Positions 9,556 to 41,632 of a stretch of DNA of 64,000 bases are shown here, one piece after another. This DNA comes from Microbispora catharanthi (lineage in GTDB: Bacteria; Actinomycetota; Actinomycetes; Streptosporangiales; Streptosporangiaceae), in the NCBI RefSeq assembly GCF_006334915.2, contig NZ_VDMA02000013.1, forward strand, positions 124,001 to 188,000, written 5' to 3'. The position numbers were made by a program, and so were the translations under genes. Every line of letters begins with the position of its first letter. Position 1 is the stretch's first letter. The notes under the pieces were generated by a model. It saw nothing but the letters and a program-made list of their open reading frames with translations, was not told the origin of the DNA and searched no databases.

Positions 9556-9624
9556 GCGAGGAGAATTTCATTCGGTTTGCCCTGCCGCAAGCGGCACATG
9601 ACCAGATCTGTACGGTTGTGTGGT

Positions 9625-24376: not shown

Positions 24377-25531
24377 GTGGAGGACGTCTGGGACCTGGTG
24401 GTGGTCGGCGCCGGGCCGGCGGGCTCGGCCGCCGCGCTGCGGGCCAGGCAGCTCGATCCCGGCTGCCGGGTGCTGCTGCTCGACCGGGCGGCCTTCCCGC
24501 GTGACAAGGCCTGCGGCGACGGCATCGCGGCGCACGCACGGCAGGAGCTCGCGCTGCTCGGGCTGCCCGGCCTGCTCGACGACCACCGGCCGACGCCGCG
24601 CCTGTCGGTGACGTCGCCCGGCGGGGCCCACGTCTCGGCCGTCGTCGCACGGCCCAACCACGTGGTCCCCCGCCGGGTCTTCGACAACCGGCTGGTCGAG
24701 GCGGCGCGGGCGCGCGGCGTGGAGGTGCGCCGCCACCGGGTGCGTACGCTGACCACCCTCGGCGGGCACGTCGTGATCGACGGCCACCTGGTCGCCCGGG
24801 CGGTCGTCGCCGCCGACGGCGCCAACTCGGCCGTACGGCGGCTGATCGGCGTCCCGCCGAGCCCGGACCGGCACACCGCCATCGCGGTGCGCGGGTACGC
24901 CGACGTGCCGCCGGACGACGACGAGCAGGTCATCGTCATGCAGAGCGAGGGCTGGCCGGCCTACGCCTGGTCGTTCCCGGTGGGCGACGGCACGGCCAAC
25001 GTCGGCTACGGCCTGCTGCTGCCGACGCTGAGACAGACCGGCCGGCCCGGGCGCGAGATCCTGCACGGGCGGCTGGCCCGGCTCCTGCCCCTGCTGGGTG
25101 AGATCAGGTCCCCCGTCCGCGACCTGCGGGCGCATCACCTGCCGCTGTCGAGCGGGCGGCCGGTGCCGGGCGCGGGCCGCGTGCTGCTGGCCGGCGACGC
25201 GGCGAGCCTCGTCAACCCGCTGACCGGCGAGGGCATCTACTACGCGCTGCTGTCGGGGCGGCTGGCCGCCGAGGCGGCGATCGGTTCGCCGGACGACCCG
25301 CTGCGGGCCTACCGGCGCGGGCTGCGCGGGGCGCTCGGGCGGCACCTGCGCACCACCGACGTGCTCGCCCTGGCCGCCCGCTCCCCCGGCTTCATCGACG
25401 CGGCGATCACCGTCGCCGCCCACCGCACCGAGGTGTTCGACCTACTCGTAGACGTCGGGCTCGGGGCGGGCACCGTGCCGCCCCGCCTGGCGGCGGCCGT
25501 CGCCCTCCGCTGGCTCAAGAATCTCACCTGA
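24377..25531 (+). CDS. FAD-dependent geranylgeranyl-reductase-family oxidoreductase
   Basis: The protein has 384 residues from GTG 24377. The FAD-binding GxGxxG lies in LVVVGAGPAGSAAALRAR, and the second FAD motif is RVLLAGDAASLVNPLTGEGI near residue 275. PRDKACGDGI (C/G/D segment) is typical of geranylgeranyl reductases that saturate isoprenoid chains, for example in menaquinone or lipid modification. The GTG follows the hydrolase stop directly, so the two genes form an operon. The 3' end overlaps the convergent GAF regulator gene by 8 bases. Confidence 0.85.
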   Translation: MEDVWDLVVVGAGPAGSAAALRARQLDPGCRVLLLDRAAFPRDKACGDGIAAHARQELALLGLPGLLDDHRPTPRLSVTSPGGAHVSAVVARPNHVVPRRVFDNRLVEAARARGVEVRRHRVRTLTTLGGHVVIDGHLVARAVVAADGANSAVRRLIGVPPSPDRHTAIAVRGYADVPPDDDEQVIVMQSEGWPAYAWSFPVGDGTANVGYGLLLPTLRQTGRPGREILHGRLARLLPLLGEIRSPVRDLRAHHLPLSSGRPVPGAGRVLLAGDAASLVNPLTGEGIYYALLSGRLAAEAAIGSPDDPLRAYRRGLRGALGRHLRTTDVLALAARSPGFIDAAITVAAHRTEVFDLLVDVGLGAGTVPPRLAAAVALRWLKNLT

Positions 25532-26834
25532 ACGGCAGGCCGTACTCCGCGTCGAGGTCGCGCACCCGCCGGGCGGCCCGCGCCCGGGCCGGGGATCCGG
25601 CGGGCAGCGCGGCCAGCAGCGCCTGCCAGGCGACGATGTCGTCCCTTCCCCACGGCGCGCGCGTCCATCGTTCGAGCAGCGCGGGGTCGCGCCGGGCCAC
25701 CAGCAGGTCGCGTACGCCGTCGTCCAGCAGGCGGCGCTGCCATACGACGCCGGGCGCGTCCGAGCCGGGCAGGAGCTGCCCTCGGTAGGCCCGCAGCGCG
25801 GCGTCGGCGTCCGCGGCGGCCAGGTGCTCGGCGAGCGCCTGGAAGTCGGCCCGCACCGGCACCCGCAGCCGGTACGGACGGGAGTCGAGCAGCGGGCCGA
25901 GCCGGTGGCGCAGCCGGGACAGCTCCGCGCGGAGCGTGACGGGGTTCAGCATGCGGTCGCCGTACAGCTCCGCGCTGAGCTGGTCGCTGCTCAGCCCCTC
26001 GGGATGGCAGGCCAGCAGCACGACGATCTCGCTGTGCCGGGGACCCAGCCTGATCCGGCGCGGGCCCTCGGTGAGCACGGCGTCGTCCCGGCCCAGGGCC
26101 GTGAGCGTCACGGCGGGCGCAAGAGCCGGAGCGGGAAGCGTGGCCCCGTGGTTGGAAGCAAGGTGCGCCTCCGCCGCGCGGGCCGCCGCCTGCACGAGGG
26201 CCAGGCTGTACGGGCTGGCCAGGTTGTCGCCGCCGGTGACGTCGACCGCGCCGAGCAGGCGGCCGGTGTGCGGGTCGTGGATCGGCGCGGCGGCGCAGGT
26301 CCACGGCTGCACCGGTACGGCGAAGTGCTCGGCCGCGAAGATCTGCACCGGATGGCCGACCGTGATCGCGACGCCGGGGGCGTTGGTGCCCGCGTGGGAC
26401 TCGTCCCACCGGGCCCCGGCGACGAAGTTCATCCGCTCGGCCCGCGCCCGCGCCCCGCGATGTCCCTCGACCCACAGCAGCCGGCCGGCGGCGTCGCACA
26501 CCGCGAGCAGGTGCCGCCCGTCGTCGGCGATGCCGCCCAGCAGATCGCGGAACAGCGGCAGCACCCTGGCCAGCGGGTGCGCGCTGCGATACTCCTCGAG
26601 CTCGGCGTCGGTGAGCTCCAGCGGCGCGAGCGCGTCCGGATCGACCGCCCGGGCCGATCGCCGCCACGAGTCGGCGACCAGGGAACGCACCGGCCCGTCG
26701 ATCGCCCCGGCCGACAGGAAGCGCTCATGGGCGCGGCGCAGCTCACCGGTACGCTCCGCCGCGTCGGCCCCGGATTCAAGCGCGAGCCATGGATTGGTCA
26801 CGGCGCCCTCACTCTCCGCGTCTTCAGGCGCCAT
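25524..26834 (-). CDS. GAF-domain transcriptional regulator, AcoR-like without AAA domain
   Basis: About 436 residues from ATG 26834 (GTG 26840 also in frame). The N-terminal region (about 45-240) has the SWRRS and GTNAPGVAITVGHPVQIFAAEHF, AAPIHDPHTGRLLGAVDVTG motifs of the GAF sensor in AcoR-type activators. The C-terminal half (about 265-340: LGPRHSEIVVLLACHPEGLS, LRAELSRLRHRL) resembles a winged-helix output domain rather than sigma-54 AAA+. In actinomycetes such proteins sit beside exaC-DUF779 operons and probably activate them in response to aldehyde or alcohol. Here it is separated from exaC by two genes on the other strand. Confidence 0.75.
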   Translation of the reverse strand: MAPEDAESEGAVTNPWLALESGADAAERTGELRRAHERFLSAGAIDGPVRSLVADSWRRSARAVDPDALAPLELTDAELEEYRSAHPLARVLPLFRDLLGGIADDGRHLLAVCDAAGRLLWVEGHRGARARAERMNFVAGARWDESHAGTNAPGVAITVGHPVQIFAAEHFAVPVQPWTCAAAPIHDPHTGRLLGAVDVTGGDNLASPYSLALVQAAARAAEAHLASNHGATLPAPALAPAVTLTALGRDDAVLTEGPRRIRLGPRHSEIVVLLACHPEGLSSDQLSAELYGDRMLNPVTLRAELSRLRHRLGPLLDSRPYRLRVPVRADFQALAEHLAAADADAALRAYRGQLLPGSDAPGVVWQRRLLDDGVRDLLVARRDPALLERWTRAPWGRDDIVAWQALLAALPAGSPARARAARRVRDLDAEYGLPFR

Positions 26835-26910: not shown

Positions 26911-27735
26911 TCAGGCGGACGCCCAGATGTCCTTGTCGATGTCGCCGGCGGCCTGCGGGCCCATCAGGCCGAGCCCTCCGTCCACGAACAGCGACGCGCC
27001 GGTGACGTACGACGCGGTCGGCCCGGCCAGGAAGGCGATCACCGCGGCGACCTCGCGGGCGTCGCCGGGACGGCCGAGCGGATAGCCGGGCCGGGTGTCC
27101 GGCCGGGGCGGCTGGTCCTCCTGCCCGGTCATGGGAGTCGCGATCTCCCCGGGTGCCACGGTGTTGACCGTGATGCCGTGCCTGGCCAGCTCCATCGCGA
27201 GTGTGCGGCTGAGCATCCGCAGACCGCCCTTGGCCGCGCAGTAGGGCCCGGCCCCGAGGCGGGGGTACTCCTCGTGGACGCTGGTCACGTTGACGATCCG
27301 GCCGCCCGCGCCGCGCGCGATCATCCGGCGGGCGGCCCGCTGCGAGCACAGGAACGGCCCGTCGAGGTCGACCGCGAGGACCGACCGCCACCGGTCGTAG
27401 CCGATCTCCAGAAGCGGCTCGGCCGTGCCGGTGCCCGCGTTGTTCACCAGCACGCCGAGGCCGCCCAGCTCGTCGGCGAGCTCGTCGATCACGGCCGCCG
27501 CGGCCACCGGGTCGGTCAGGTCGTGCTGCCGCACCGCGGCCCGGCGCCCCCGCACCTCGACCTGCTCCGCGGTCTCCCGCGCGCCCTTCTCGTCCTGGTG
27601 ATAGGTGACGCCGACGTCGAAGCCGTGCGCGGCGAGCATCACCGCGGTCGCCCGCCCGATCCCCGAGTCGGCGCCGGTGACGATCGCCACCTTGTCGTAG
27701 TCGAAGCGCGAGATCGGCGCCACCGTGCCGCCCAT
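26911..27735 (-). CDS. SDR-family oxidoreductase, possible cluster member
   Basis: The protein has 274 residues from ATG 27735, with an excellent GGAGGGGG site. It has a TGADSGIGRA cofactor motif, VNNAGTGT, and the catalytic triad Ser in VTSVHEEYP and Tyr/Lys in GPYCAAKGG. C-terminal TGASLFVDGGLGLMGPQ resembles glucose/ribitol-type dehydrogenases. It starts 52 bases after the glycosyltransferase stop on the same strand, so it may be co-transcribed with the biosynthetic genes, but such SDRs are also common housekeeping genes. Confidence 0.8.
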   Translation of the reverse strand: MGGTVAPISRFDYDKVAIVTGADSGIGRATAVMLAAHGFDVGVTYHQDEKGARETAEQVEVRGRRAAVRQHDLTDPVAAAAVIDELADELGGLGVLVNNAGTGTAEPLLEIGYDRWRSVLAVDLDGPFLCSQRAARRMIARGAGGRIVNVTSVHEEYPRLGAGPYCAAKGGLRMLSRTLAMELARHGITVNTVAPGEIATPMTGQEDQPPRPDTRPGYPLGRPGDAREVAAVIAFLAGPTASYVTGASLFVDGGLGLMGPQAAGDIDKDIWASA

Positions 27736-27787
27736 GGATCCCCCTCCGTCGGTTTACGGCACCTCGGCGTACCCGGGAGACCCTCCT

Positions 27788-29071
27788 TCACACGCCCCGG
27801 CGGGCGCGCGCCATGGCGGCCAGGCGCGTGCGCTGCTCCGGGGTGAGACGCGCCAGCCGCTCGCGCGGATCCGGCCGCGTCATGACCGCGTCGGTCCCGA
27901 TGAGCGCCTCGGCGTGCTCGGCCGCGACACGCACGGAGTCCTCCGACGCGGCGTCGGCCGCGAGCGGCGCGATCCGCTCCCGGTATCCGCCGTCGGCCGC
28001 GGAGTCCAGGGCCCGGGCCAGCAGGTCGGCCGTCCGGTCCTCGGTCCAGTGCGACACGGGCAGCCAGGTCGCCACCCCGGCGCGTTCCAGCCGCTCGGCG
28101 TTGTCCGGGCGGTCGACGCCGTGCGCGAGGAGCACCTGCGGGGTCGCCGACGACAGCGCCCGGGCGAGTGTGCCGATCCCGCCGTGGTGGACGACCGCGG
28201 CGACATGGGGCATGACCGTGGCGAACGGCGCCGAGGGCACCCACTCCACCCCGTCGGGCAGCGACTCGGGCTGGAACGACGGGTGCCGGTTCACCAGCAG
28301 GGCCTTCCTCCCGATCCGCCGGCACGCCCGCGCCGCCACGTCGTAGAACCGGTCGTGCAGCACCTGCCCGGTGCCGCCGGTGATCAGCACGGGCGGCTCG
28401 GCCCAGTCAGGGATCGGGCCCTCCGCCGTGTCGCCGAGCACGAACCCGCAGCGGACGACGCCCTCCGGCGCCGGCTGGCCCGCGGCGTCGAACCATTCCG
28501 GCCACAGCGCGAGCTGGGTCTTGGCGCTCGTCAGGTAGGCGACCCAGTCGCGGACCGGCCGCAGGCCGAACGCCTGGAAGACGTCGTCGTACCCCTGCCC
28601 GAGCACGCGCCTGAAGAGGTTCCCGAGCACCGGCAACGAGACGTACTGATGGGGCGTGACGGACACCAGCGCCACCGGCACCCCGCGACGCTCGGCGGCC
28701 ATCAGCGCGGCGATGCCCGAGGTGTGCCGGGCGACCACCACGGTCTCCCCCGGCCGATAATGCTCCTCGATCATGCGGACCTCGTCGGCGAGCAGCTCGA
28801 ACAGGCCGTTGCGCCGGTAGAGCGCGAGCACGCCGTCGGGGTCTTTCAGGGGATCGAGCATGTAGCGCCGGGCGTCGTCCAGGTGCCGGTCGTAGCCCTC
28901 CGCCGTGTCGATCGGCAGGTGCCGGAGACCCGCGGCCGCGATCCGGTCGGCGAACCAGGAGTGCGTCATCACGACGACGTCGTGGCCGCGCTCCGCCAGC
29001 TCGCGCCCGATCCGTACGAACGGGAGCACGTCGCCGTTGGTGCCGTGGGTGCTCAGCAGCATCGTGGCCAT
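27788..29071 (-). CDS. MGT/UGT-type glycosyltransferase (GT1) with C-terminal docking-like tail
   Basis: The protein has 427 residues from ATG 29071, 5 bases after the FkbH-protein stop. It starts with MLLSTHGTNGDVLPFVRIGRELAERG, the acceptor-domain loop of GT1 enzymes such as macrolide and rhamnosyl transferases. The donor-binding region VAAVVHHGGIGTLARAL (with the HHGG motif) and AHGVDRPDNAERLE follow. GT1 enzymes move sugars from NDP-sugars to small molecules, here presumably the cluster product. The last about 25 residues (RERLARLTPEQRTRLAAM) are not part of the fold and resemble NRPS N-terminal docking segments. Confidence 0.85.
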   Translation of the reverse strand: MATMLLSTHGTNGDVLPFVRIGRELAERGHDVVVMTHSWFADRIAAAGLRHLPIDTAEGYDRHLDDARRYMLDPLKDPDGVLALYRRNGLFELLADEVRMIEEHYRPGETVVVARHTSGIAALMAAERRGVPVALVSVTPHQYVSLPVLGNLFRRVLGQGYDDVFQAFGLRPVRDWVAYLTSAKTQLALWPEWFDAAGQPAPEGVVRCGFVLGDTAEGPIPDWAEPPVLITGGTGQVLHDRFYDVAARACRRIGRKALLVNRHPSFQPESLPDGVEWVPSAPFATVMPHVAAVVHHGGIGTLARALSSATPQVLLAHGVDRPDNAERLERAGVATWLPVSHWTEDRTADLLARALDSAADGGYRERIAPLAADAASEDSVRVAAEHAEALIGTDAVMTRPDPRERLARLTPEQRTRLAAMARARRGV

Positions 29072-29076
29072 GCGGA

Positions 29077-31158
29077 TCAGCCGTTCCCCGAGTCGAGCAG
29101 GGCGTCGATCTCCTCGTCCGACAGGCCCGCGAGCTCGTCGAGCAGCCCGGCCAGCTCCTCGTCGTCGGTGTCGGCGAGCTGCCGCTCCTCGATCGCCTTG
29201 GCGACCTCGGCGACGGTGAACGAGGTGGTGTAGAGCGTGTCGAAGGGCAGCTCGACGCCGAACTCGGCACGCACCCGCGCCATGAACTGCACCAGCCGCA
29301 GCGAGTGGCCGCCCAGTTGGAAGAAGCCGTCGCTCACCGAGGCCGGCGCCACGTCGAGCAGTTCGGCCCACATCCGCATCACGGTCACCTCGACGGGACT
29401 CGCTCCGGCCACCTCCGCCACCGGACGGGCGGCTCGCATGGCGTCGAGGATCGCGTCGGCGCCGGTCAGCCGGGTCGCGATCCGTTCGACGGCCGCCCAG
29501 CCGGCGGGAGCGGCGGGTTCCGCGATCCGGATGGCCTGTACGGCCTGGTCGGGCCCCGCTGCCCTCTCCTCAGCAGGGCCCGGCGCGTGGACGACGGCCG
29601 CCGCGGCGCCCGCGTCGAGGACGTACCAGGCCGCCTCCTCGCCGTACGGCTCCACCGTCGCCGGCAGGGCGGCCAGGAAGTCCCTGGCCGGTTGGTTGCG
29701 CTCGGTCGCCCGGAAGGCCAGGGCCACCCGGGCCAGCCCGCGCTCCCGCGCGAGCACCCCCAGGTGCGCGAGCATGCGGTGCTCCACCCCGCGCCCGAGC
29801 GCCCGGCAGCTGAGCAGGAACGCACCGGCGCGCAGCGTGTCCCCCTCCGTCCGCACGTCGGTGAGGCCGACGACGCCGTAGTCCCCGAAGCGGTCGCGCA
29901 CGTCCACGACGAACTTCTCGTCGCCGTCCAGGCGACGCACCCCCGAGAGGTTGAACTGGTTGGTCCGCTCGGCGAGCTGAGCGGCCCGGGCCTCGTGCTC
30001 GGGACCGGCGGGGGTGATGGTCACCCGCAGGTCGAGCGTGGCGAAGAAGTCGGCGAGGGACATCTCGTCCCTGGCCTGCTCTCGCTGCCGTTCCTCCTGG
30101 TAGCGGCGGGTGCGCTCGCGGTCGGCCTCGGTGACCGCGGTCAGGTCGAGGGGCCAGCAGTGCCGGAGGAAGGCCGCCGCCTCCGCGGCACCTGCCGGGA
30201 GCCGGAGGGTCAGCACCTCGGGGCAGCCGGCCCGGACCTCGGCGCACTCGACCGGGCTGTCGTCGAGGAAGACGAACGAGTCGAGCCCGAGGTCGAGCTC
30301 GGCGGCGAGCGAGCGCAGCGACTGAGACTTGGCCTCCCACCCGACACGCATCGCGGCGACGTCGTCCAGGCCGACCGGCAGCTCCGGATGCCGGGCGAAC
30401 ACCTCGCGGACGTCCTTCTCCTCGTTCTTGCTGCACAGGCACAGCAGCCTGCCTGCGGCGACCTGGCGCGCCAGCTCCCGCCAGATCTCCATCCGCTCCG
30501 GGCCGATGACCACGCCGTCGGGACCGTCCTCGCCGACCACGCCGTCCCAGAGCGTGCCGTCGCAGTCCACGGCGACGACCTTGGGACGCGGGGTGGTCAT
30601 GGCGTGCAGGCGGCGGGCGGCCGCGGCGGCCAGCGCGGCGAAGTAGCGGTCGGTGTAGGGGACGTTGCCGGTCCGGTCGGCGAAGGCGTCGTGGACGGCC
30701 TCCGGCGCGGGCTCGTACGGCTCGGCGGAGGTGAGCACGGAGACGGCCCGGTCGCCCTCGAACGCCCGGGCCAGACTGGAGGCGAGGCGCGCGTGGGCCT
30801 CGGGTGAGCCGTGCTCGGGCGAGGGAGGGCAGACGACGAGCACGTGGGGCGTGCCGGACGCGCGTGCCGAGGTTCGCAGCGCGGCGGCGAGGTCGGTGGC
30901 CACGGCCTCCACCTCGTCGAGCCCGTCCTGCTCGGCGGCCAAATCCCCGGCGACCAGATCTTCCGCCCGGACCAGCACGACGGCGGCGCCGGCCCGGCCG
31001 AGCACGCTGCCCGAGTCGAGGAGCGAGGGGAAGACCTGGTCGTACGGAGCGAAGGCCACCTCCCCCTCGACGCCGAGTTCGGCGAGCCAGAACCGCAGGG
31101 CGTCCCCGAGCGGCTCGGCGGTGAAGGTCGCGGCGACCCCAAGTCCGATCTTGTTCAC
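29077..31158 (-). CDS. FkbH-type HAD protein fused to an acyl/peptidyl carrier domain
   Basis: The protein has 693 residues. The N-terminal about 185 residues resemble the FkbH leader region. The HAD core begins at VAVDCDGTLWDGVVGEDG (about 195-212), followed by CSKNEEKDVREVF and VFLDDSPVECAEVR. A GNAT-like FkbH C-terminal part follows (ERTNQFNLSG, FGDYGVVGLTDV). A carrier domain ends the protein, with GFFQLGGHSLRLVQFMARV (Ser near 618). FkbH enzymes dephosphorylate 1,3-bisphosphoglycerate and load glyceryl onto a carrier; here enzyme and carrier are one chain. The acidic tail ELAGLSDEEIDALL resembles a docking motif. Second gene of the leftward operon. Confidence 0.88.
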   Translation of the reverse strand: MNKIGLGVAATFTAEPLGDALRFWLAELGVEGEVAFAPYDQVFPSLLDSGSVLGRAGAAVVLVRAEDLVAGDLAAEQDGLDEVEAVATDLAAALRTSARASGTPHVLVVCPPSPEHGSPEAHARLASSLARAFEGDRAVSVLTSAEPYEPAPEAVHDAFADRTGNVPYTDRYFAALAAAAARRLHAMTTPRPKVVAVDCDGTLWDGVVGEDGPDGVVIGPERMEIWRELARQVAAGRLLCLCSKNEEKDVREVFARHPELPVGLDDVAAMRVGWEAKSQSLRSLAAELDLGLDSFVFLDDSPVECAEVRAGCPEVLTLRLPAGAAEAAAFLRHCWPLDLTAVTEADRERTRRYQEERQREQARDEMSLADFFATLDLRVTITPAGPEHEARAAQLAERTNQFNLSGVRRLDGDEKFVVDVRDRFGDYGVVGLTDVRTEGDTLRAGAFLLSCRALGRGVEHRMLAHLGVLARERGLARVALAFRATERNQPARDFLAALPATVEPYGEEAAWYVLDAGAAAAVVHAPGPAEERAAGPDQAVQAIRIAEPAAPAGWAAVERIATRLTGADAILDAMRAARPVAEVAGASPVEVTVMRMWAELLDVAPASVSDGFFQLGGHSLRLVQFMARVRAEFGVELPFDTLYTTSFTVAEVAKAIEERQLADTDDEELAGLLDELAGLSDEEIDALLDSGNG

Positions 31159-31183
31159 TGCGTTTTCCCTTTCGAGAGCGCGA

Positions 31184-32110
31184 TCAGTCGGACATGGCGA
31201 CGAGGATGCGGCGGGAGCCGGTGAAGGGCCTGCGGCCGTGCCCGACCAGCACGTTGTCGATCAGCAGCAGGTCGCCCTTCCGCCAGTCGACGTCCACCGC
31301 GTTGTCCAGCCCCCGGTCGCGCACCTGGATCACGTACTCGCCGGGGATCGGGGCGCCGTCGGGGAACGTCACCGACTGCGGCAGCTCCTCCGGCGGCATG
31401 AGTTCGGCGAGCATGGCGGCGGCCTCGTCGCCGAGCGAGGCGGGGTGCCACTGGTCGGCCTGGTTGAACCACACCTCGGCCCCGGTCACGGGGTGCCGAG
31501 TGGTGGCGGGCCTGATCTGGGAGATCCGCACGCCGCCGTCGGGCCGCCACTGCCAGTCCGCCTCGATGCGGTCGAGGAAGCCGGCCACCTCGTCGCGGTC
31601 CTCGGTCTCGAACGTCTCCTGCCAGCTCTTGCCGAGCCCCCGACCGGCGTGCAGGTTCTGGGTGTAGCGCACGCCCTTGGCGAAGGCCTCCCTGACCTCG
31701 TCCTCGAGCGACTCCAGCCAGCGCACGCCGTCCACGACGGGGGTGGCCCCGCCGGTCTCGGCCGCCTTCTCGCAGTAGAACAGCAGCCGCGAGGGCCAGG
31801 TGGCGGAGTACGACAGCTCGTTGTGCATGGAGATCGTGTACTCGGGCGGGTACTCGGTCGAGGTGTAGACGTTGCCGCCCACCTTGGTGCGGGGCGAGTT
31901 GCCGTGGACGTACGCCAGCCGGTTGGGCAGCAGCATGTCCATGACGGGATCGAGGGTCTCGGGCGTGACGCCGAACCCCCGGAAGACGAGCGCCTTCTCG
32001 CGGACCAGCAAGTCGCCCAGGTTCAATCCGCGCAGCCGTTCCATCAGCCCCTCGGGCGTGGCGGCGGAGCCGTCCGGGGTTATTTCCAGGGGCTTCCAGA
32101 AGTCGTCCAT
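31184..32110 (-). CDS. TauD/SyrP-like Fe(II)/2-oxoglutarate dioxygenase
   Basis: The protein has 308 residues, with GAAGGAGGACGC before the ATG. Iron ligands are visible: H96-x-E98 in SMHNELSYS and a distal His in VLVGHGRRPFTG near 292; the Arg for 2-oxoglutarate follows (RRPFTGSRRIL). The overall pattern (LVFRGFGVTPETLDPVM, AYVHGNSPRTKVGGNVYTST) matches SyrP-type enzymes, which hydroxylate amino acids bound to NRPS carriers. It is inferred to hydroxylate the residue loaded by the NRPS encoded opposite. First gene of the leftward operon; 25 bases separate it from the FkbH gene. Confidence 0.85.
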   Translation of the reverse strand: MDDFWKPLEITPDGSAATPEGLMERLRGLNLGDLLVREKALVFRGFGVTPETLDPVMDMLLPNRLAYVHGNSPRTKVGGNVYTSTEYPPEYTISMHNELSYSATWPSRLLFYCEKAAETGGATPVVDGVRWLESLEDEVREAFAKGVRYTQNLHAGRGLGKSWQETFETEDRDEVAGFLDRIEADWQWRPDGGVRISQIRPATTRHPVTGAEVWFNQADQWHPASLGDEAAAMLAELMPPEELPQSVTFPDGAPIPGEYVIQVRDRGLDNAVDVDWRKGDLLLIDNVLVGHGRRPFTGSRRILVAMSD

Positions 32111-32225
32111 GCGTCCTCCTTCTGCACGGGATCGGGCCGCGGCCGAGCACGGGGAAAAGTTGAATTAAGGAGGCAGGCGGGCCCTCGAATAGGCGGCGCC
32201 CCTGCGGAAAGAGATTCCGGCGGCC

Positions 32226-32255
32226 AACATAGAACCCGGATCGGGTCACGCGCAA
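32226..32255 (-). promoter_or_regulatory. Candidate promoter of the leftward dioxygenase/FkbH/GT operon
   Basis: On the minus strand TTGCGC (32255-32250), 18 bases and TATGTT (32231-32226) form a plausible sigma-70-like promoter. The message would have a leader of about 110 bases before the dioxygenase ATG at 32110. Confidence 0.5.
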
Positions 32256-32267
32256 GAAACATGTTTC
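32256..32267. promoter_or_regulatory. Perfect palindrome GAAACATGTTTC abutting the leftward -35
   Basis: This 12-bp perfect palindrome lies immediately upstream of the predicted -35 hexamer of the leftward operon. The position suits an activator or repressor site. It is unrelated in sequence to the CebR-type box on the other side of the region. Confidence 0.45.
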
Positions 32268-32422
32268 ATCCGGTTCAACTCGACGACGTCAGTCAAATTA
32301 TCCGACATTCGCCTGTGTCCATCGGCAATGCCGACGACCACTCATGTTCTGCGGTCGGCAGGCGATGACGGAAGGTCGATTTCCCAATACTCTTCGCACC
32401 TGATCGCAGGTAGAAGTGAGGC

Positions 32423-32452
32423 TTGCGTTACCCAACGTGCATCCCGTATCGT
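32423..32452 (+). promoter_or_regulatory. Candidate promoter of the NRPS-MFS gene
   Basis: TTGCGT (32423-32428), an 18-base spacer and TATCGT (32447-32452). The expected start of transcription is around 32459, giving a leader of about 160 bases that contains the CebR-type box, a tandem repeat and a hairpin. Confidence 0.55.
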
Positions 32453-32466
32453 AAAATAACCACTTT

Positions 32467-32484
32467 CGTGGGAGCGCTCCCACG
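32467..32484. promoter_or_regulatory. CebR-type operator (exact TGGGAGCGCTCCCA) upstream of the NRPS gene
   Basis: An 18-bp perfect palindrome, CGTGGGAGCGCTCCCACG, whose inner 14 bases (32469-32482) are identical to the CebR box described for Streptomyces. There the LacI-family repressor CebR leaves the site when cellobiose or cellotriose binds, controlling cellulose use and, in Streptomyces scabiei, the thaxtomin NRPS cluster. Here it lies just downstream of the predicted transcription start of the NRPS gene, where a bound repressor would block transcription. No cebR gene is in this window. Confidence 0.75.
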
Positions 32485-32498
32485 CATCTCGACTCGAA

Positions 32499-32522
32499 AC
32501 GCGGCGAGATACGCGGCGAGAT
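32499..32522 (+). repeat. Tandem 12-bp direct repeat in the NRPS leader
   Basis: ACGCGGCGAGAT occurs twice back to back (32499-32510, 32511-32522) with no mismatch. It may be a second regulator-binding site or a product of slippage. Confidence 0.6.
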
Positions 32523-32584
32523 CCTGCGAAATCGACGATCAAGCGTTTTCTGGTTCAACCACTTTTCTGCGTGGTCAGCTGGTC

Positions 32585-32603
32585 CTGCGCATAATTTGCG
32601 CAG
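32585..32603 (+). promoter_or_regulatory. Hairpin directly before the NRPS ribosome-binding site
   Basis: CTGCGCA (32585-32591) and TGCGCAG (32597-32603) form 7-bp arms around TAATT. The ribosome site AGAGGAG (32604-32610) follows immediately, so the stem could affect translation start, or the repeat could be a DNA operator. Confidence 0.4.
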
Positions 32604-32618
32604 AGAGGAGAACGCTCG

Positions 32619-35600
32619 GTGACGATATCGCCGACGACTGACAACGAGCATCTAATAGCGTCGCTTTCCCCACGCAGGCAGGAGGCCCTGCGCCGGCTCC
32701 TCGCCGCCAGAGCCGCCAGGGCCGCCGCCGCGGACGCGATCACCCCACGCGGCGAGGGACCCGCCCCCTGCTCCTACGAGCAGACCCAGATGTGGCTCGG
32801 CGCCCGCTTCGCCGAGGGCGCTCCGGCGCCGAACGCCACGATCGGCCTGCGGCTCACCGGCCCGCTCGACACCCGGGCGCTGACCGTCGCCCTGGACAGC
32901 CTGGTCGAACGCCACGAGATCCTGCGTACGGTCTACGAGGGCGACGGGCACGAGCCCCGCCAGATCGTCCTCGACCCCGGGCCGGCGCCGCTCGACGTCG
33001 TCGACCTGCGGGACCTGCCGGAGCCCGAGCGGGAGGCCCGGGCCCGGGAGATCACGTGCAGGGCCGCCGTCGAACGCTTCGACCTGGAGACCGGGCCGGT
33101 CCACCGCACGACGCTGGTCCGGCTGGCCGACGAGGACCACGTGCTGATGTTCGTCTGCCACCACATCGCATGCGACGGGTGGTCGGTCGGCATCATCGTG
33201 GACGAGCTCACCGGCGTGTACGCGGCCGCCCACGAGGGCCGTCCCGCCGAGGTGGCCACGCCCCCGCTTCAGTACGCCGACTACGCGGCCTGGTCGCGGC
33301 GTGAGCTGACCGGCGAGCGGCGCGAGCGGCGGCTCGCCTACTGGCGCGACCGGCTCGACGGCGCGAGCGCGGTGGAGCTTCCCATCGCGCGGGACGGTCA
33401 TGCCGCCACCGAGGGCAACCGGAGCGACTGCCACCTGTTCACGCTGCCGGACGAGGTCCTGCGGGCGCTGCGGGAGGTCGGCGGCCCGGGAACCACCCCG
33501 TTCGTGGCCCTGCTCACGGTCTTCTCGATGCTGCTCGCGCGCTACACCGGGCAGGGCGACCTGACGATCGCCACGGTGGACGGCGGCCGGCGCCGGGTGG
33601 AGCTGGAGCCCGTGCTGGGCTGCTTCGTCAACGCCCTGCCGCTGCGCGCCGACCTGTCGGACAACCCCTCGTTCAGGGAGGCGGCGGCCGGGGTGCGGCG
33701 CAGGCTCGGCGAGGCGCTCGCCAACCACCTGCCGTTCTCGGAACTGGCCGGGGCGCTGAGCGACCGGGACGCCCGCAACTTCTCGCTGTCGACCGTCGGC
33801 TTCTCGCTGCGCGTCTTCCGCGACCAGCGCGGGCGCTGGCCCGGACTGGAGGCGTCGGTCTGGGAGCACGAGGTCGACGACTTCACCTACGACCTCGCGC
33901 TGCTCGTGCACCTGAACGGCACCGGCGACCCCGAGCTCTATCTGACCTACCAGAAGGACCGGTTCGACGCGGACTCCGTCGTCCGGATGGCCGGGCACTA
34001 CCGGGCGCTGGCCGAGCGGATCGCCGCCGCCCCGGACACCCCGCTGGCCGACCTGGAGATGCTCACCGACGCCGAGCGCGACGTGGTGCTGGGCGCCTGG
34101 AACGACTCGGCCCGGCCGTACCCGGACGTGGCCCTGCCCGAGCTGCTGGAGCGCCACGCGGGCTCCGACGCGGTCGCGGCCTCCTTCGAGGGCCGCACGA
34201 CCACGTACGCCGAGCTGCACGCCCGCGCCAACCAGGTCGCCCACCTGCTGCGCGAGCGGGGCATCGGCCCGGAGGACACGGTGGGCGTGCTGCTCGACCG
34301 GAGCCCGGACCTCATCGCCTGCCTGCTGGGCGTGTGGAAGGCGGGCGCGGCCTACCTGCCGATGGATCCCAAGTTCCCCGCGCAGCGCGTCCGCGACATG
34401 CTGTCGATCGCCGCGACCCCGCTGGTCCTGACCTCGGCGGGCTACGCTCATCTCTTCGACGGCGTCCGCGTCGACGTCGTGGACGTGGACGGCGGCCTGC
34501 TCGACGAGCAGCCGCGCGACCCGGCCGGCGTGCCGTACGACATCGACCGGCTGGCCTATGTGATCTTCACGTCGGGGTCCACCGGCAAGCCGAAGGGCGT
34601 GCAGGTCACCCACCGCGGTCTGGTGAACCACGTGTGGTGGGCCGTCGAGGACCTGGCGTCCCAGGGCGACGGCGGCGCGCCGCTGTTCGGTTCGGTGGCG
34701 TTCGACCTCGTGGTGCCCAACCTGTGGGCGCCGCTCGTCGTGGGACAGCGGGTCACCGTGCTGGCCCAGGACTTCGACATGGGCGAGCTGGGCGCGCTGC
34801 TGGTGGCGGGCGGGCCGTACGGCTTCATCAAGTGCACCCCCGGCCACCTGGAGGTGCTCGGTCACCAGATCGACGCCCGGCAGGCCGCGGCGCTCGCCGG
34901 GAAGATCGTCGTGGCGGGCGAGGCGCTGCCCGGCTCGATGGCCAACCGGTGGCTGGAGATGCTCGGCCCGGGCCGACTGATCAACGAGTACGGCCCCACC
35001 GAGGCCTCTGTCGGGACGTGTATCTATCCCGTGCGGGACGCCCAGCTCGTGGAGGTCGTCCCGATCGGGCGTCCGCTGCCCAACATGCGGATGTACGTCC
35101 TGGACGCCAACCGGCGGCTGCAGCCGGTCGGCGTGCCGGGCGAGCTGTACGTCGGCGGCGTGGGCGTGACCCGCGGCTACATGAACCGGCTGGACCTCAC
35201 CGAGGAGCGGTTCCTCCCCGACCCCTTCCACCCTGTCTCCGGGAACGAGGGCGGGCGGATGTACCGCACCGGCGACCGGGTGACCTGGACGCGCGACGGG
35301 AACGTGGCCTTCCTCGGCCGGTTCGACGACCAGGTGAAGATCCGCGGCTACCGCATCGAGCTGGACGAGGTGCGGGCGGCCGTCCTCGATCACCCCGGCG
35401 TGCGCGACGCGGTCGTCACCGTGCACGCGTTCACGCCCGAGGACAAACGGCTCGTCGCCTACTACGTCCCCACAGGTCCGGAGTTATCCGAGCTGGCAGA
35501 GCACTGCGCGGCGCGGCTGCCGGAATACATGATCCCATCGGTGTTCGTGCCGCTGGAGACCATCCCGCTCAACGCCAACGGCAAGGTGGACCGCAAGGCG

Positions 35601-38138
35601 CTGCCCGATCCGGTGGTGCGGGTGGGCGAGGACCTGGCCGAGCCGACGACCGAGACCGAGATCGTGGTGGCCGGGGTCTGGCGTGAGGTCCTCGGCATCG
35701 AGGCCGTCTCGATCGACAACGACTTCAACGCGCTCGGCGGCCACTCGCTGCTGCTCATCCGCATGGTCGCCAAGCTGCGCCAGGCGCTGCCCGCCGACGG
35801 CTACCAGGTGACCGTGCTCGACGCGATCGCCAACCGCACCGTGCGGGAGCTGGCCGCGCTGATCGACGCCGCCCGGCAGGCGCCGGAAGAGACCGAGGAC
35901 GGCCCTCGCGGCCTGCTGGTCGAGCTGACCCGGCCGGTGAAGACGCCGACGCTGTCGCTGGTCTGCATCCCGTACGGCGGGGCCAGCGCGATGATCTACC
36001 AGCCGCTGGCCGACGTGCTGCCGGCCGGGCACTCGCTGTTCTCGGTCGCCCTGCCGGGCCACGAGCTCGGGGTCGAGGAGAGCACGATCCCGTTCCACGA
36101 GGCCGCGCAGCGGGTGTGCGACGAGGTGATGGAGCGGGTGCGCGGCCCGGTCGCGCTGTACGGCCACTGCGTCGGCAGCGCGCTCACCACCGAGATCGCG
36201 CGGAGGCTCGAGGCGGCGGGACGCCGGGTCGAGGCCGTCTACGTGGGCGGCAGCTTCCCGTTCGCCACCCCCACCAAGGGCCTGAACGGCCTGCTCGGAC
36301 GGATCTTCCGCAGCAAGGCGCTGGACAACGCCAACGCGCACGCCAACTGGCTGCGCGCGATGGGCGCCGACCTGCAGGACCTCGACCCCGATCAGGTCGA
36401 CCACATCATCCGCACGATGCGGGTGGACGCGCGGGCCGGCGAGGACTACTTCAGCGAACTCGTGGAGCAGCAGAGCCCGCAGCTGCGCGCCCCGGTGATC
36501 TCGATCGTCGGCGACCGCGACGCGCTGACCGACTTCTACCAGGAGCGCTACCGCGACTGGCACTGCGTCTCCGAGACCACGGCGCTGGTCGTGATGGCCG
36601 AGGCCGGCCACTACTTCCTCCGATACCGCACCGAGGAACTGGCCGCGATCGTCACGACCACCCACACCGCCGTGGAGAGTCCCGGCGAGTGGCGGCCGCG
36701 CCCGCCCGACGACCCGGCGACGTGGTGGCGACAGGCGCTGTCCGCCGACCGGCGGGCCGACGTCGCCGGGCCGCAGCCCAGCCTTGGCCGGTTCTTCACG
36801 GTGGCGACCGGTCAGATCGTCTCCATGATCGGCGCCGTGATGACCGAGTTCGCCGTGCCGATCTGGGCGTACCTGAAGAGCGGCTCGCTGGTGCAGTTCG
36901 GGCTGTTCGCCATCATCGGGCTGGTGCCGGGGCTCGTCCTCGCGCCGCTGATCGGCGCGCTCGTCGACCGGTACGACCGCAAGCGGGCGATGCTGGCGGC
37001 CGACGGCATGTCGCTGGCCGTGCAGGCCGCGCTGCTCGCGCTGATGGCGAGCGACGGGTTGAGCATGCCCGTGCTGTACGCCCTGCTGGTGGTGCTGTCG
37101 ATATCGGTGACCCTCCAACGGGTGGCCTGGCAGTCGGCGGGTCCGCAGCTCGCGCCCAAGCACTATCTGCATCACGTCGGCGGCGTCGTCCAGCTCGGCA
37201 ACGCCGTGGCCCAGCTCATGGTCCCGCTGTTCTCCGTCGCCGTGCTGGCGTTGATCGGCATCGAGGGCATCCTGACCGCCAACGTGATCTGCTACGCGAT
37301 CGCGTTCGCCGTGACCCTGCTCGTGCGCTTCCCGGCCACGATGGCCTGGCGGCGCAGGGAGACGGTCTCCGCCGAGATCCGCAACGGCTTCCGCTACCTG
37401 CTGCGACGGCGGGGCCTGCGGGCCATGGCCTTCACGATGTTCATCGTGAACTTCTTCCTGTTCACCGGGTTCATCATGATCTCGCCGCTGGTGCTGTCGG
37501 TCGGCGAGCTGGCCGACACCGGGCGGGTGGCGCTGCTCGCCGGGATCGGGGCGGTCTGCGGCGGCGTGATCATCACGCTGTGGGGCGGCCCGCGCGACCG
37601 CCGGATGTTCGGCATGCTGTCGGCCGCCGGCGTGCTCGGGATCTTCTGCGCGATCGCCGGTCTGCGCTCGTCGCTCGTCCTCATCACGGTCGGCGCCTTC
37701 GGCATGTCGCTGATGATGACGATCAGCGACGGCATCTGGCTGACGATCATCCACTCGAAGGTGCCCCAGCGCTACCACGCCCGGGTCATCGCGATCAACC
37801 GGATGCTCGCGCTGTCGACCCAGCCGGTCGGCCTGGCCGTACAGGCCTGGCTGGTGGGGCTGGTCTTCGAGCCGCTGATGCGGCCGGACGGCCCGCTGGC
37901 CGACACGGTCGGCACGGTGATCGGGGTCGGCGAGGGCCGCGGCATCGGCCTGCTGTACGTGGTGTGCGGCCTGGCCATCGCGTTCACGATCACGCTGGCC
38001 CTGCGTCACCCGGCCCTGGCGCGGTTCGACCAGGAGACCCCGGACGCCGAGCCCGACGACCTGGTCGGTCTGGAGGCGCTGCGCAGCCGCCAGGAGGAGG
38101 CGAGCGTTCCGGCGCAGCGGGTCCCGGCCGAGCTCTGA
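32619..38138 (+). CDS. NRPS-exporter fusion: C-A-T-TE-MFS
   Basis: The protein has 1839 residues from GTG 32619, with a good AGAGGAG site. Domain order: docking-like helix (LSPRRQEALRRLLAARAA, 16-33); condensation domain with HHIACDG (H181, H182, D186); adenylation domain with TSGSTGKPKG (651-660), NEYGPTEAS (789-797), YRTGDR and NGKVDRKAL; carrier domain LGGHSL (Ser1043); thioesterase with GHCVGS (Cys1184 where Ser is usual), Asp1301, His1331; then about 12 membrane segments of an MFS transporter (about 1388-1795). The binding-pocket residues read D-L-P-K-V-A-E-V-G-K, nearest to the Asn code. One amino acid is activated, joined to an upstream acyl group, released and exported by the same chain. 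The FkbH-carrier protein is the likely acyl donor. Confidence 0.92.
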   Translation: MTISPTTDNEHLIASLSPRRQEALRRLLAARAARAAAADAITPRGEGPAPCSYEQTQMWLGARFAEGAPAPNATIGLRLTGPLDTRALTVALDSLVERHEILRTVYEGDGHEPRQIVLDPGPAPLDVVDLRDLPEPEREARAREITCRAAVERFDLETGPVHRTTLVRLADEDHVLMFVCHHIACDGWSVGIIVDELTGVYAAAHEGRPAEVATPPLQYADYAAWSRRELTGERRERRLAYWRDRLDGASAVELPIARDGHAATEGNRSDCHLFTLPDEVLRALREVGGPGTTPFVALLTVFSMLLARYTGQGDLTIATVDGGRRRVELEPVLGCFVNALPLRADLSDNPSFREAAAGVRRRLGEALANHLPFSELAGALSDRDARNFSLSTVGFSLRVFRDQRGRWPGLEASVWEHEVDDFTYDLALLVHLNGTGDPELYLTYQKDRFDADSVVRMAGHYRALAERIAAAPDTPLADLEMLTDAERDVVLGAWNDSARPYPDVALPELLERHAGSDAVAASFEGRTTTYAELHARANQVAHLLRERGIGPEDTVGVLLDRSPDLIACLLGVWKAGAAYLPMDPKFPAQRVRDMLSIAATPLVLTSAGYAHLFDGVRVDVVDVDGGLLDEQPRDPAGVPYDIDRLAYVIFTSGSTGKPKGVQVTHRGLVNHVWWAVEDLASQGDGGAPLFGSVAFDLVVPNLWAPLVVGQRVTVLAQDFDMGELGALLVAGGPYGFIKCTPGHLEVLGHQIDARQAAALAGKIVVAGEALPGSMANRWLEMLGPGRLINEYGPTEASVGTCIYPVRDAQLVEVVPIGRPLPNMRMYVLDANRRLQPVGVPGELYVGGVGVTRGYMNRLDLTEERFLPDPFHPVSGNEGGRMYRTGDRVTWTRDGNVAFLGRFDDQVKIRGYRIELDEVRAAVLDHPGVRDAVVTVHAFTPEDKRLVAYYVPTGPELSELAEHCAARLPEYMIPSVFVPLETIPLNANGKVDRKALPDPVVRVGEDLAEPTTETEIVVAGVWREVLGIEAVSIDNDFNALGGHSLLLIRMVAKLRQALPADGYQVTVLDAIANRTVRELAALIDAARQAPEETEDGPRGLLVELTRPVKTPTLSLVCIPYGGASAMIYQPLADVLPAGHSLFSVALPGHELGVEESTIPFHEAAQRVCDEVMERVRGPVALYGHCVGSALTTEIARRLEAAGRRVEAVYVGGSFPFATPTKGLNGLLGRIFRSKALDNANAHANWLRAMGADLQDLDPDQVDHIIRTMRVDARAGEDYFSELVEQQSPQLRAPVISIVGDRDALTDFYQERYRDWHCVSETTALVVMAEAGHYFLRYRTEELAAIVTTTHTAVESPGEWRPRPPDDPATWWRQALSADRRADVAGPQPSLGRFFTVATGQIVSMIGAVMTEFAVPIWAYLKSGSLVQFGLFAIIGLVPGLVLAPLIGALVDRYDRKRAMLAADGMSLAVQAALLALMASDGLSMPVLYALLVVLSISVTLQRVAWQSAGPQLAPKHYLHHVGGVVQLGNAVAQLMVPLFSVAVLALIGIEGILTANVICYAIAFAVTLLVRFPATMAWRRRETVSAEIRNGFRYLLRRRGLRAMAFTMFIVNFFLFTGFIMISPLVLSVGELADTGRVALLAGIGAVCGGVIITLWGGPRDRRMFGMLSAAGVLGIFCAIAGLRSSLVLITVGAFGMSLMMTISDGIWLTIIHSKVPQRYHARVIAINRMLALSTQPVGLAVQAWLVGLVFEPLMRPDGPLADTVGTVIGVGEGRGIGLLYVVCGLAIAFTITLALRHPALARFDQETPDAEPDDLVGLEALRSRQEEASVPAQRVPAEL

Positions 38139-38162
38139 GGTGCTCTGACGGATGAATGGCCT

Positions 38163-38188
38163 ACGGGCCGCCGGGTACGGCGGCCCGT
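38163..38188 (+). terminator. Strong hairpin terminator after the NRPS-MFS gene
   Basis: ACGGGCCGCCG (38163-38173) and CGGCGGCCCGT (38178-38188) pair perfectly over 11 bp with a GGTA tetraloop, 25 bases after the stop codon. It directly abuts the next ATG (38189), which is unusual. Confidence 0.7.
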
Positions 38189-38491
38189 ATGGACGAGAAG
38201 AAGATGAACCCGAAGCAGCTCGCAGAGGAGCTGGCGACCAACGCGCAGGACGACCCGCGGTTCAAGAACCGGACGCCCGGCATCCGGGCCACCCGGCAGG
38301 GGTCGGTGGAGAAGGCGGACCAGGACGCCGCCGGCATCGTCGGCGGGACCGGCGTGTCGGGCGGCGGGGCCTCCGGAGGTGGAACGTTCGGGCAGCCGCC
38401 GACCGGACGGCTCGACGACGACCAGCTCGCCGACACGGTGGCGGGCACCGGCCTGCCGCCCGACGACGAGGAGGACGAGGGCGACCAGTAG
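38189..38491 (+). CDS. Small acidic Gly-rich protein of unknown function
   Basis: About 100 residues from ATG 38189; ATG 38204 (MNPKQLAEELATNAQDDPRF) is an alternative after GAGAAG. The N-terminal half is charged and helical. A Gly-rich loop (GGTGVSGGGASGGG) and an acidic tail (DDEEDEGDQ) follow. There is no Cys, membrane segment or signal. The protein looks intrinsically disordered. I do not recognise the family. It follows the NRPS terminator and so probably has its own expression. Confidence 0.6.
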   Translation: MDEKKMNPKQLAEELATNAQDDPRFKNRTPGIRATRQGSVEKADQDAAGIVGGTGVSGGGASGGGTFGQPPTGRLDDDQLADTVAGTGLPPDDEEDEGDQ

Positions 38492-39842: not shown

Positions 39843-40694
39843 TCACGGCCCTTCCCCTTGCAGATCGGCGGCGAGGTCGACGAACTCCTGGATGAGCCGG
39901 CCGCGGCGGTCGGCGTCCCACGCGAGGCAGACCTCGTTGGGCGGGAAGTCCCGGACGGGCACATGCGCCACGTCGGAACGGGTGTAGAAGGTCGCGGCGG
40001 ACAGCGGGAGAATCACGACGCCACGCTCCGCCGCCACGTGTTCCAGCTTCTCCTCGACCGTGCGCACCGCGGGTTCCGTCCGGGGAGCGTCGCCGGGCCA
40101 CTCCGGCACCGCGGCGGGGTTCTGCAGCAGGCACTCGCCCGCCAGGTCGGCGACGTCGACGGCGTCCTTGCCCGCCAGCGGATGGCCGGCCGGCAGGACC
40201 ACGACGCGCGGCTCGGCGAACAGCGGCCGCAGCCGCAGCCCGCGCCGGTCCACCGGCAGCCGGACGTAGCCGACGTCGGCCCGCCCGTCCCGGATGACGT
40301 CGATCTGGTCGTCCCAGCTCGTACGGAGCACCTCGACGGTGAGTTCGGGGTGCCGGGCGGACAGGGCGCGCACGGCCGGGGTGACGATCAGGCCGGGCAT
40401 GAAGGCCACGGTGAAGGTCCGGGGGCCGCGGGCGGCCCTGCCGACCCGCCGCCGCAACGCCTCGGCGGCGGCGAGCAGCGGCCGGGCGTCCTCCAGGAGT
40501 TGCTCGCCGGCGGGCGTCAGCTCGGTGCCCCGCCTGGTGCGGACGAACAGCTGGGCCCTGAGCTCGCCCTCCAACGCCCTGATCTGCCGGGACAGCACGG
40601 GCTGCGCGATGTGCAGCGCCTCGGCCGCCCGCCCGAAGTGCAGCCGCTCTGCGACCGCCACGAAGTAACGCAGCTTGCGCAGGTCCACGTCCAC
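39843..40694 (-). CDS. LysR-family transcriptional regulator
   Basis: The protein has 283 residues from GTG 40694, with GAGGAGGC 5 bases upstream. The N-terminal winged helix is classical (LRKLRYFVAVAERLHFGRAA, QPVLSRQIRALEGEL, LFVRTRRGTELTPAG). A periplasmic-binding-like effector domain follows (TFTVAFMPGLI, LTVEVLRTSWDDQIDVIRDG). It is divergent from the SDR gene 121 bases away, the usual arrangement for a regulator and its target. Confidence 0.9.
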   Translation of the reverse strand: MDVDLRKLRYFVAVAERLHFGRAAEALHIAQPVLSRQIRALEGELRAQLFVRTRRGTELTPAGEQLLEDARPLLAAAEALRRRVGRAARGPRTFTVAFMPGLIVTPAVRALSARHPELTVEVLRTSWDDQIDVIRDGRADVGYVRLPVDRRGLRLRPLFAEPRVVVLPAGHPLAGKDAVDVADLAGECLLQNPAAVPEWPGDAPRTEPAVRTVEEKLEHVAAERGVVILPLSAATFYTRSDVAHVPVRDFPPNEVCLAWDADRRGRLIQEFVDLAADLQGEGP

Positions 40695-41535: not shown

Positions 41536-41632
41536 GCACCTTGGAGAAGCGGTCCGCGCGAACCGTTCACGTACCGGCCGGAGCCGATCAGTATGGCGGG
41601 AGTAACCCGATTCCGATCACGGGAGGCCCGGC

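Follow-up and report, generated by a model that had tools for sequence, protein, structure and literature searches.

Introduction

Glyceryl loading from 1,3-bisphosphoglycerate is an established activity of the FkbH family of proteins. FkbH is described as loading glyceryl onto a thiolation (T) domain in the vioprolide and cystomanamide non-ribosomal peptide synthetases (NRPSs), and TauD domains within NRPSs as always adjoining aspartate-selective adenylation (A) domains (PMC8949500). The thioesterase (TE) of ObiF1, from obafluorin synthesis, acts on an N-acyl beta-hydroxy amino acid (PMC6668435), and that of SulM, with the motif QCN, forms the beta-lactam of sulfazecin from N-sulfonated diaminopropionate. 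The NRPS genes of the thaxtomin cluster of Streptomyces scabies are under 14-bp boxes of the cellulose-utilization repressor CebR; the boxes listed there are imperfect, and the activator TxtR is involved (PMC5332605). Counterparts of these elements lie together in a four-gene locus of Microbispora catharanthi, within a stretch of 64,000 nucleotides (contig NZ_VDMA02000013.1, positions 124,001 to 188,000) that we call the window.

The locus contains a single NRPS module of the order condensation (C)-A-T-TE, fused to a transporter of the major facilitator superfamily (MFS). On the opposite strand are genes for a TauD/SyrP-like dioxygenase, an FkbH protein carrying its own carrier domain, and a GT1-type glycosyltransferase (Table 1). 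An earlier note on this DNA had described both the 1839-residue chain and its three partners, and the open reading frames, the Pfam domain order and TIGR01686 bear this out. Each part is of a known kind; what sets the locus apart, as far as searches of open-access papers go, is their combination, together with a swap of acyl donor within the clade, a probable cellulose switch and an exporter fused after an ObiF-type TE. We read the locus as a cellobiose-regulated four-gene pathway to a very small nonribosomal N-glyceryl beta-lactone, and give the whole scheme a probability of about 0.45.

In this scheme the FkbH protein would charge its carrier domain with glyceryl derived from 1,3-bisphosphoglycerate. 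The NRPS module would activate an asparagine-like residue, TauD would beta-hydroxylate it, and the C domain would couple the glyceryl group to its amine. The acyl chain would then be taken onto Cys1184 of the TE, as in ObiF1, and the beta-hydroxyl would close a four-membered lactone upon release. Glycosylation by GT1 would probably follow, and export through the MFS domain at the end of the chain, the divergent promoter being blocked by a CebR/CelR repressor until cellobiose arrives. The very small, single-residue N-glyceryl product of the earlier note is retained; its linear release is disfavoured, since the TE is of the ObiF/SulM cysteine type, and export by the synthetase and glycosylation of the product, which it had put too firmly, are predictions. 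Masses worked out by hand are [M+H]+ 219.061 for the predicted beta-lactone aglycone (C7H10N2O6), 237.072 for its hydrolysed form (C7H12N2O7) and 381.114 for the lactone hexoside.

A conserved four-gene unit

A search for TauD over 341 genomes of the family led to wide neighbourhoods of 40 loci, in which a simple script, based on GC by codon position and on a start and ribosome-binding site score, was used in place of a gene finder to identify open reading frames. The four genes, their order and their divergent arrangement are kept in all 15 related loci, 13 from Microbispora and two from Planobispora, with identities of 67-94% for the FkbH part and 81-98% for TauD. Since orthologues keep the same arrangement throughout, the cluster is not a chance artefact. 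Conserved co-occurrence was the check proposed in the earlier note, and with this outcome the reality of the unit is practically certain. Counting the own genome, it is present in 14 of 15 Microbispora genomes; a Microbispora-assigned genome that is 92% complete (G076) is without FkbH and TauD, which weighs on the other side. Over NRPS residues 1090-1839, the best among the protein matches listed, P0002 from Microbispora sp. NPDC046933, shows 96% identity.

All domain matches of the NRPS exceed the Pfam cut-offs. The FkbH protein scores 266 bits with TIGR01686 against a cut-off of 146.65, and GT1 scores 63.9 bits with PF06722 (EryCIII-like_C; cut-off 31.7) and 31 bits with PF03033 (Glyco_transf_28), its best sequence matches in the PDB being oleandomycin glycosyltransferases. 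In the MFS part a simple hydropathy scan finds 12 hydrophobic segments, some overlapping, and the match to TIGR00900 (158.5 bits) is under that model's cut-off. Two adjacent genes were set aside as cluster members because they are patchy in Microbispora and do not occur at the eight loci of other genera: among the 13 other Microbispora loci, the SDR gene takes the fourth place counted from the NRPS in 7, and the gene for the GAF protein lies no more than eight genes from the NRPS in 10.

The A domain places the NRPS in a distinct clade. To obtain the codes, A domains were aligned with that of the window and read at positions set by the GrsA landmarks, in a chosen sample of 100 NRPS-MFS genes (20 of the 40 wide-neighbourhood loci and 80 hits picked from a search of family genomes with the TE-MFS part). 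The classes are DFTK (32), serine-type DVWH (25), DLPK (21), cysteine-type DLYN (8), DFLK (6), DTED (4) and DVRN (3), with one code unreadable. All 21 DLPK members read DLPKVAEVGK, as does the window, and these 22 proteins are monophyletic with local support of 1.0 in a midpoint-rooted tree.

The thioesterase and the release step

The TE has the motif GHCVGS (GxCxG) with Cys1184 as nucleophile. In the alignment Cys1146, Gly1173, Asp1254 and His1284 of ObiF1 correspond to Cys1184, Gly1211, Asp1301 and His1331; Asp1301 is at the RifR-like position, and Gly1211 stands where EntF-type TEs carry aspartate. The cysteine is kept in 21 of 21 other members of the DLPK clade. ObiF1 is the nearest solved relative by sequence, and by predicted fold (Foldseek, whose list VIA-align only re-ranks) ObiF1 is followed by SulM.

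The cysteine nucleophile, the RifR-position aspartate and the closest PDB relationship by both measures thus all link this TE to the obafluorin enzyme. The settings differ. ObiF uses beta-hydroxy-p-nitro-homophenylalanine, whereas here the residue would be asparagine-like, with TauD adjoining; the donor here would be the carrier of the FkbH protein, an MFS domain is fused, and Pfam finds no MbtH-like domain. With SulM the TE shares the cysteine nucleophile and the fold group, but it has GHCVG in place of QCN and, unlike in the sulfazecin system, no sulfotransferase was found among 40 window proteins scanned with Pfam.

Several points weigh against ring closure. RifR-type type II TEs have aspartate at the same position as the window TE, and the SulM paper groups the ObiF and SulM TEs with those of type II. 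AB3403 has a cysteine TE without an assigned product. In the DFTK class the TE has a cysteine in 32 of 32 proteins, yet 31 of the 32 loci lack an adjoining TauD gene over the length covered; this absence carries little weight because the flanks read are short (about 6.5 kb at the median, down to 1.9 or 0 kb on one side). A cysteine TE by itself is therefore no proof of beta-lactone closure. For the same reason a family-wide rule, in which serine, cysteine or a TauD-hydroxylated residue would supply a beta-nucleophile before every cysteine TE, was rejected as universal.

After the same assembly the TE might hydrolyse the chain, or water or an alcohol intercept it, to give linear N-glyceryl-3-hydroxyasparagine or its glycoside, as the earlier note proposed. 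The C1146S variant of ObiF1 mainly hydrolyses (PMC6668435), the TE group resembles hydrolytic type II enzymes, and two clade loci that have no TauD could not make the lactone nucleophile in this way. On the other side, the cysteine is invariant in the clade and the two closest folds belong to ring formers. The pairing of an ObiF/SulM-type cysteine TE with TauD leads us to favour the beta-lactone over the linear product. A four-membered lactone has an even chance; linear release is rather unlikely.

Alternatively the enzyme might work iteratively in the manner of EntF, oligomerizing N-glyceryl-hydroxyasparagine units through the beta-hydroxyl into a cyclic oligolactone, which the MFS domain would export and which might be a metallophore. 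A C-A-T-TE protein with a carrier-bound donor in trans resembles EntB and EntF, and the EntF family model matches the NRPS with 409 bits, far under its cut-off of 2400. Yet the triad is ObiF-like, with Cys1184 and glycine in place of a serine nucleophile and an aspartate at the classical position. Furthermore, no iron box TTAGGTNAGNCTNACCTAA is present within three mismatches in the 64-kb window, and the promoter has a cellobiose operator instead. These last two findings weaken the siderophore reading, and we consider iteration improbable.

The predicted residue and its hydroxylation

The code DLPKVAEVGK agrees with the asparagine code DLTKVGEVGK at 8 of 10 places, and is nearer to it than to the aspartate code. 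In TauD the iron ligands His96, Glu98 and His291 (HxE...H) are invariant in 10 of 10 aligned sequences; the solved relatives by sequence, 1y0z (At3g21360) and 9yut, do not settle the substrate. Orthologues with 63-78% identity stand in other NRPS clusters, with the codes DLTKVGHIG (aspartate-type), DLTKIGEVG (asparagine-type), DFTK and DLPKVAEVG.

We compared codes across 23 TauD loci (L056-L078). No A domain was found at L057, L060, L062, L063 and L069, and four loci were excluded: L065 and L070 as unreadable or fragmentary, and L077 (only serine codes) and L078 (DFTK among others) for a distant TauD of 51-52% identity. TauD lies beside a DLTK, DFTK or DLPK A domain in 12 of the 14 readable loci, and in 10 of 12 outside the clade; the exceptions, L064 and L066, have no acidic or amide code within the part fetched. 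Since its orthologues adjoin codes of the aspartate and asparagine types, we take TauD to be a candidate beta-hydroxylase of the SyrP kind. It resembles the SyrP/TauD aspartate beta-hydroxylases in family and in its place beside an A domain of apparently acidic or amide type, and differs in that the partner code is DLPKVAEVGK. The SyrP-like hydroxylase and single residue of the earlier note remain the best reading, with the residue now refined to asparagine-like. On the strength of the codes the residue is probably of the asparagine/aspartate type, and its beta-hydroxylation is predicted with the same assurance.

Evidence of the opposite tendency comes from the literature and from two sister loci. 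DLPKVAEV was not found in open-access papers, nor were any of the six codes looked up. TauD is kept in 20 of 22 DLPK-clade loci, window included; L084 and L085 retain the NRPS and GT1 with no TauD nearby, and their genomes (G003 and G005) have no TauD match at E <= 1e-30. A ring might then be closed through a glyceryl hydroxyl, as a six-membered morpholinedione or a seven-membered ring, with TauD acting in tailoring or at another position. That chemistry would also suit L084 and L085, if the donor there is a hydroxyacyl group, but the retention of TauD at 20 of 22 loci speaks against it, and no member of the ObiF/SulM group of TEs is known to us to close a ring through a glyceryl hydroxyl, although no search was aimed at this. 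We regard it as just as improbable as oligomerization, and retain closure by the beta-hydroxyl as the preferred reading.

The DLPK code is also found outside the NRPS-MFS proteins. One A domain of a multi-module NRPS with no MFS match (L061:4-8226) has DLPKVAEVG, and the TauD of that locus (9615-10556) is 71% identical to that of the window.

The probable acyl donor

The HAD motif of the FkbH protein (D198-C-D-G-T202) and the LGGHS motif of its carrier are invariant in 9 of 9 aligned sequences; the cysteine of the FkbH 'CSKN' motif varies (C/S/A), a point against the scheme as a whole. FkbH with a fused carrier occurs in 16 members of the DLPK clade, window included. The six other loci (L054 and L055 from Acrocarpospora; L084 and L085 from the same genus, g2; L058 and L059 from genus g18, of which two of seven TauD-bearing genomes were read widely) have in its place a free carrier (107-112 aa) that shares 55-58% identity with the carrier domain of FkbH. 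They also have a GT4-type protein and pyruvate-dehydrogenase-like genes: E1alpha is present in all six, and E1beta and E2 were read in L080 (which continues L054), L084 and L085, while L081, which continues L055, has genes that match the dehydrogenase trio in length. The FkbH and free-carrier variants are each monophyletic. Genes of the E1alpha type also lie near some loci of other classes (DFTK 10, cysteine 4, serine 3, DTED 1).

A role in priming carriers with small acyl groups has been proposed for genes of this kind, in the case of the glycolyl unit of naphthyridinomycin and in that of pepteridine (PMC5384830). The sister clade is similar in having E1alpha, E1beta and E2-like genes beside a carrier, and it is only in the sister clade that they stand next to a DLPK NRPS. 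The window in turn has FkbH as a putative glyceryl loader for an NRPS, like the vioprolide and cystomanamide systems. There FkbH replaces an A domain within the assembly line, whereas here FkbH and its carrier form a separate protein that would act in trans. The exchange of one donor for the other, with the code unchanged, supports a small acyl donor in trans. On our reading, such a carrier would deliver a small acyl group to the NRPS, and in Microbispora and Planobispora this group would be glyceryl; the FkbH carrier is very probably the donor.

That the FkbH protein, and perhaps GT1, belongs to another pathway and merely adjoins the NRPS is very improbable, given that the adjacency is conserved in 15 of 15 loci of two genera, that 14 of 15 Microbispora genomes have a single FkbH match at E <= 1e-60, and that a homologous free carrier takes the place of the carrier part beside the same NRPS in the sister clade. 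Further afield, five loci (L191-L195) in metagenome-assembled genomes of Myxococcota, Rhodospirillaceae, Acidobacteria, Proteobacteria and Armatimonadota have FkbH proteins of 29-42% identity with no TauD, GT1, TE or MFS match, and NRPS domains are present in two of them.

A second NRPS-MFS protein is encoded in the own genome at about 98-129 kb of G000:C22 (L170:10683-16459; L171:10006-15591; L172). It has the code DFTKLGHVGK and the TE motif GHCLGV, and is 46% identical to the window protein. E1alpha, E1beta and E2-like genes lie opposite, and the promoter between them and the NRPS-MFS gene bears the operator seen in the window. A ceb-like operon (GH1, LacI) is close by; in L170 the gene beside GH1 encodes a cebR-like LacI protein.

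A CebR/CelR-type operator

The divergent promoter carries a perfect copy of TGGGAGCGCTCCCA, the published consensus of CebR (CelR) (PMC5332605; PMC4697097). This operator is an addition of the present analysis to the earlier note. From it to the start of the NRPS gene is a distance of 136 bases, and to that of TauD 358. With one mismatch allowed, no other match exists in the 64-kb window, where 0.03 are expected. The same promoter has a perfect copy in 21 of 21 other DLPK loci. All 22 loci agree in these 14 bases. The 20-base flanks average 0.56 and 0.57 identity, which are lower bounds because the alignment is ungapped and anchored on the palindrome. In the stretches of other classes it is found at up to one mismatch in 11 of 32 DFTK and 3 of 4 DTED loci, and in none of the 25 serine, eight cysteine, six DFLK, three DVRN and one unreadable loci.

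The operator reading is based on the genome's own cellulose genes, which carry the same site. There are 14 perfect copies in the own genome and 11-16 across 15 Microbispora genomes, with none for a reversed control. Four of the 14 are on the promoter side of CBM2 cellulase genes (two GH6+CBM2, GH9+CBM2 and GH48+CBM2), and two precede an SBP-permease-permease-GH1-LacI (ceb-like) operon. Others are in the window, between the second NRPS-MFS gene and E1alpha, before an aldose epimerase, before a PL8 lyase, and in the gap separating the gene of a LacI-type sugar-binding protein from a DUF305 gene. Three copies fit the pattern less well: one follows an LPMO10+CBM2 gene at a distance of 177 bases on its 3' side, one precedes a histidine-kinase-like gene (3' of another epimerase), and one is just 3' of a protein kinase gene.

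The locus is like the thaxtomin cluster in that NRPS genes carry the 14-bp box of the cellulose-utilization repressor, a likeness of the box; it differs in having one perfect box, in a divergent promoter. Rotihibin has been linked to cellobiose supply and yet reported to be independent of cebR (PMC8552735), and therefore the box alone does not settle induction here. From the placing of these sites, control of the cluster by CebR/CelR is highly likely, and the compound may be made while the bacterium feeds on plant material.

The NRPS-MFS family and implications

The TE-MFS part matches at least 1081 proteins, and is found in 120 of 338 family genomes (about one third) at E <= 1e-120. NRPS/MFS fusions exist, as the earlier note said; they are widespread in actinomycetes, so that their distinctiveness had been over-stated. 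Proteins annotated as 'non-ribosomal peptide synthetase/MFS transporter' have the domain order seen here, while the DLPK clade is distinct in its A-domain code and partner genes. Open-access literature searches found no described product for these fusions and no paper with a title on them. At 53 of 79 loci of other classes, but at none of the 21 DLPK loci, a second large NRPS protein (family 0) is encoded no more than seven genes away. Distant TauD neighbours (35-42%) are present at five of six DFLK and 3 of 25 serine loci, and at none of the eight cysteine, four DTED and three DVRN loci.

Other members of the family have features of their own. The four DTED proteins (L088, L103, L110 and L114) are the sole class with a serine TE nucleophile, and three have an upstream operator at up to one mismatch. 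Eight proteins (L095, L098, L099, L104, L115, L118, L120 and L122) combine a DLYNxSLIWK code with a cysteine TE, five having dehydrogenase-like genes nearby; their codes and TEs make them possible thiolactone makers. The DFTK protein of L149 (index 5) has a carrier and a GT1 (48%) like those of the DLPK loci, as well as the operator, yet lies far off in the tree.

A broader and more tentative proposal is that the DLPK clade comprises cellulose-regulated synthetases with an exporter behind an ObiF-type TE, so that a reactive N-glyceryl beta-hydroxyasparagine lactone would be passed straight to the membrane. In the same proposal, the TE-MFS chassis, which is combined with serine, cysteine, aspartate-like and asparagine-like A domains in Streptosporangiaceae and further actinomycetes, would represent a large and untapped family of enzymes that make strained rings or thiolactones, some of them induced by plant cellulose. 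Both elements together we hold to be doubtful. If the pathway is as we read it, the product would be one of very few TE-made beta-lactones, and we know of no earlier one with a glyceryl acyl group. The fusion, present in about a third of family genomes, would be a physical link between the making and the exporting of a reactive compound. Cellobiose would be a first elicitor for clusters that are possibly silent in ordinary culture, and one synthetase clade with differing acyl-loading machinery would provide a natural experiment. These points bear testing in culturable Microbispora; M. rosea ATCC 12950 is one strain that has the locus.

Other features of the window

The features of the locus are collected in Table 1. 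The range described in the earlier note contained the SDR gene, which it had not listed.

Table 1. Position and assignment of features at the NRPS-MFS locus (window coordinates; domain positions in residues)
Feature	Position	Strand	Length	Basis or remark
Single-module NRPS fused to exporter, C-A-T-TE-MFS	32619-38138	+	1839 aa	GTG start; open reading frame and Pfam
Pfam order in the NRPS				Condensation 50-488; AMP-binding 516-854; AMP-binding_C 918-989; PP-binding 1017-1082; Thioesterase 1114-1345; MFS_1 1396-1730
Thioesterase domain, ObiF/SulM-like	35958-36653	+		NRPS residues 1114-1345
MFS transporter domain	36804-37808	+		NRPS residues 1396-1730; PF07690, 69.9 bits
TauD/SyrP-like Fe(II)/2-oxoglutarate dioxygenase	31184-32110	-	308 aa	PF02668, 120 bits
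FkbH protein of the glyceryl transferase/phosphatase type, carrier domain at its C terminus	29077-31158	-	693 aa	TIGR01686
PP-binding carrier domain of the FkbH protein	29191-29382	-		Residues 593-656; PF00550, 50 bits
GT1-type glycosyltransferase	27788-29071	-	427 aa	PF06722/PF03033
SDR oxidoreductase	26911-27735	-		Probably outside the unit
GAF-domain protein	25524-26690	-		PF01590; neighbour, doubtful member
CebR/CelR-type cellobiose operator TGGGAGCGCTCCCA	32469-32482	not assigned		Divergent promoter

Immediately after the NRPS, on the same strand, is an open reading frame of 100 aa (38189-38491) with no Pfam match, 77-95% identical in six other Microbispora loci. Past a LysR regulator (39843-40694), SDR and cytochrome P450 genes lie in tandem (40816-42829). 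A further plant-polymer gene in the window, at 18286-19773, encodes a pectate lyase with a ricin-type carbohydrate-binding domain.

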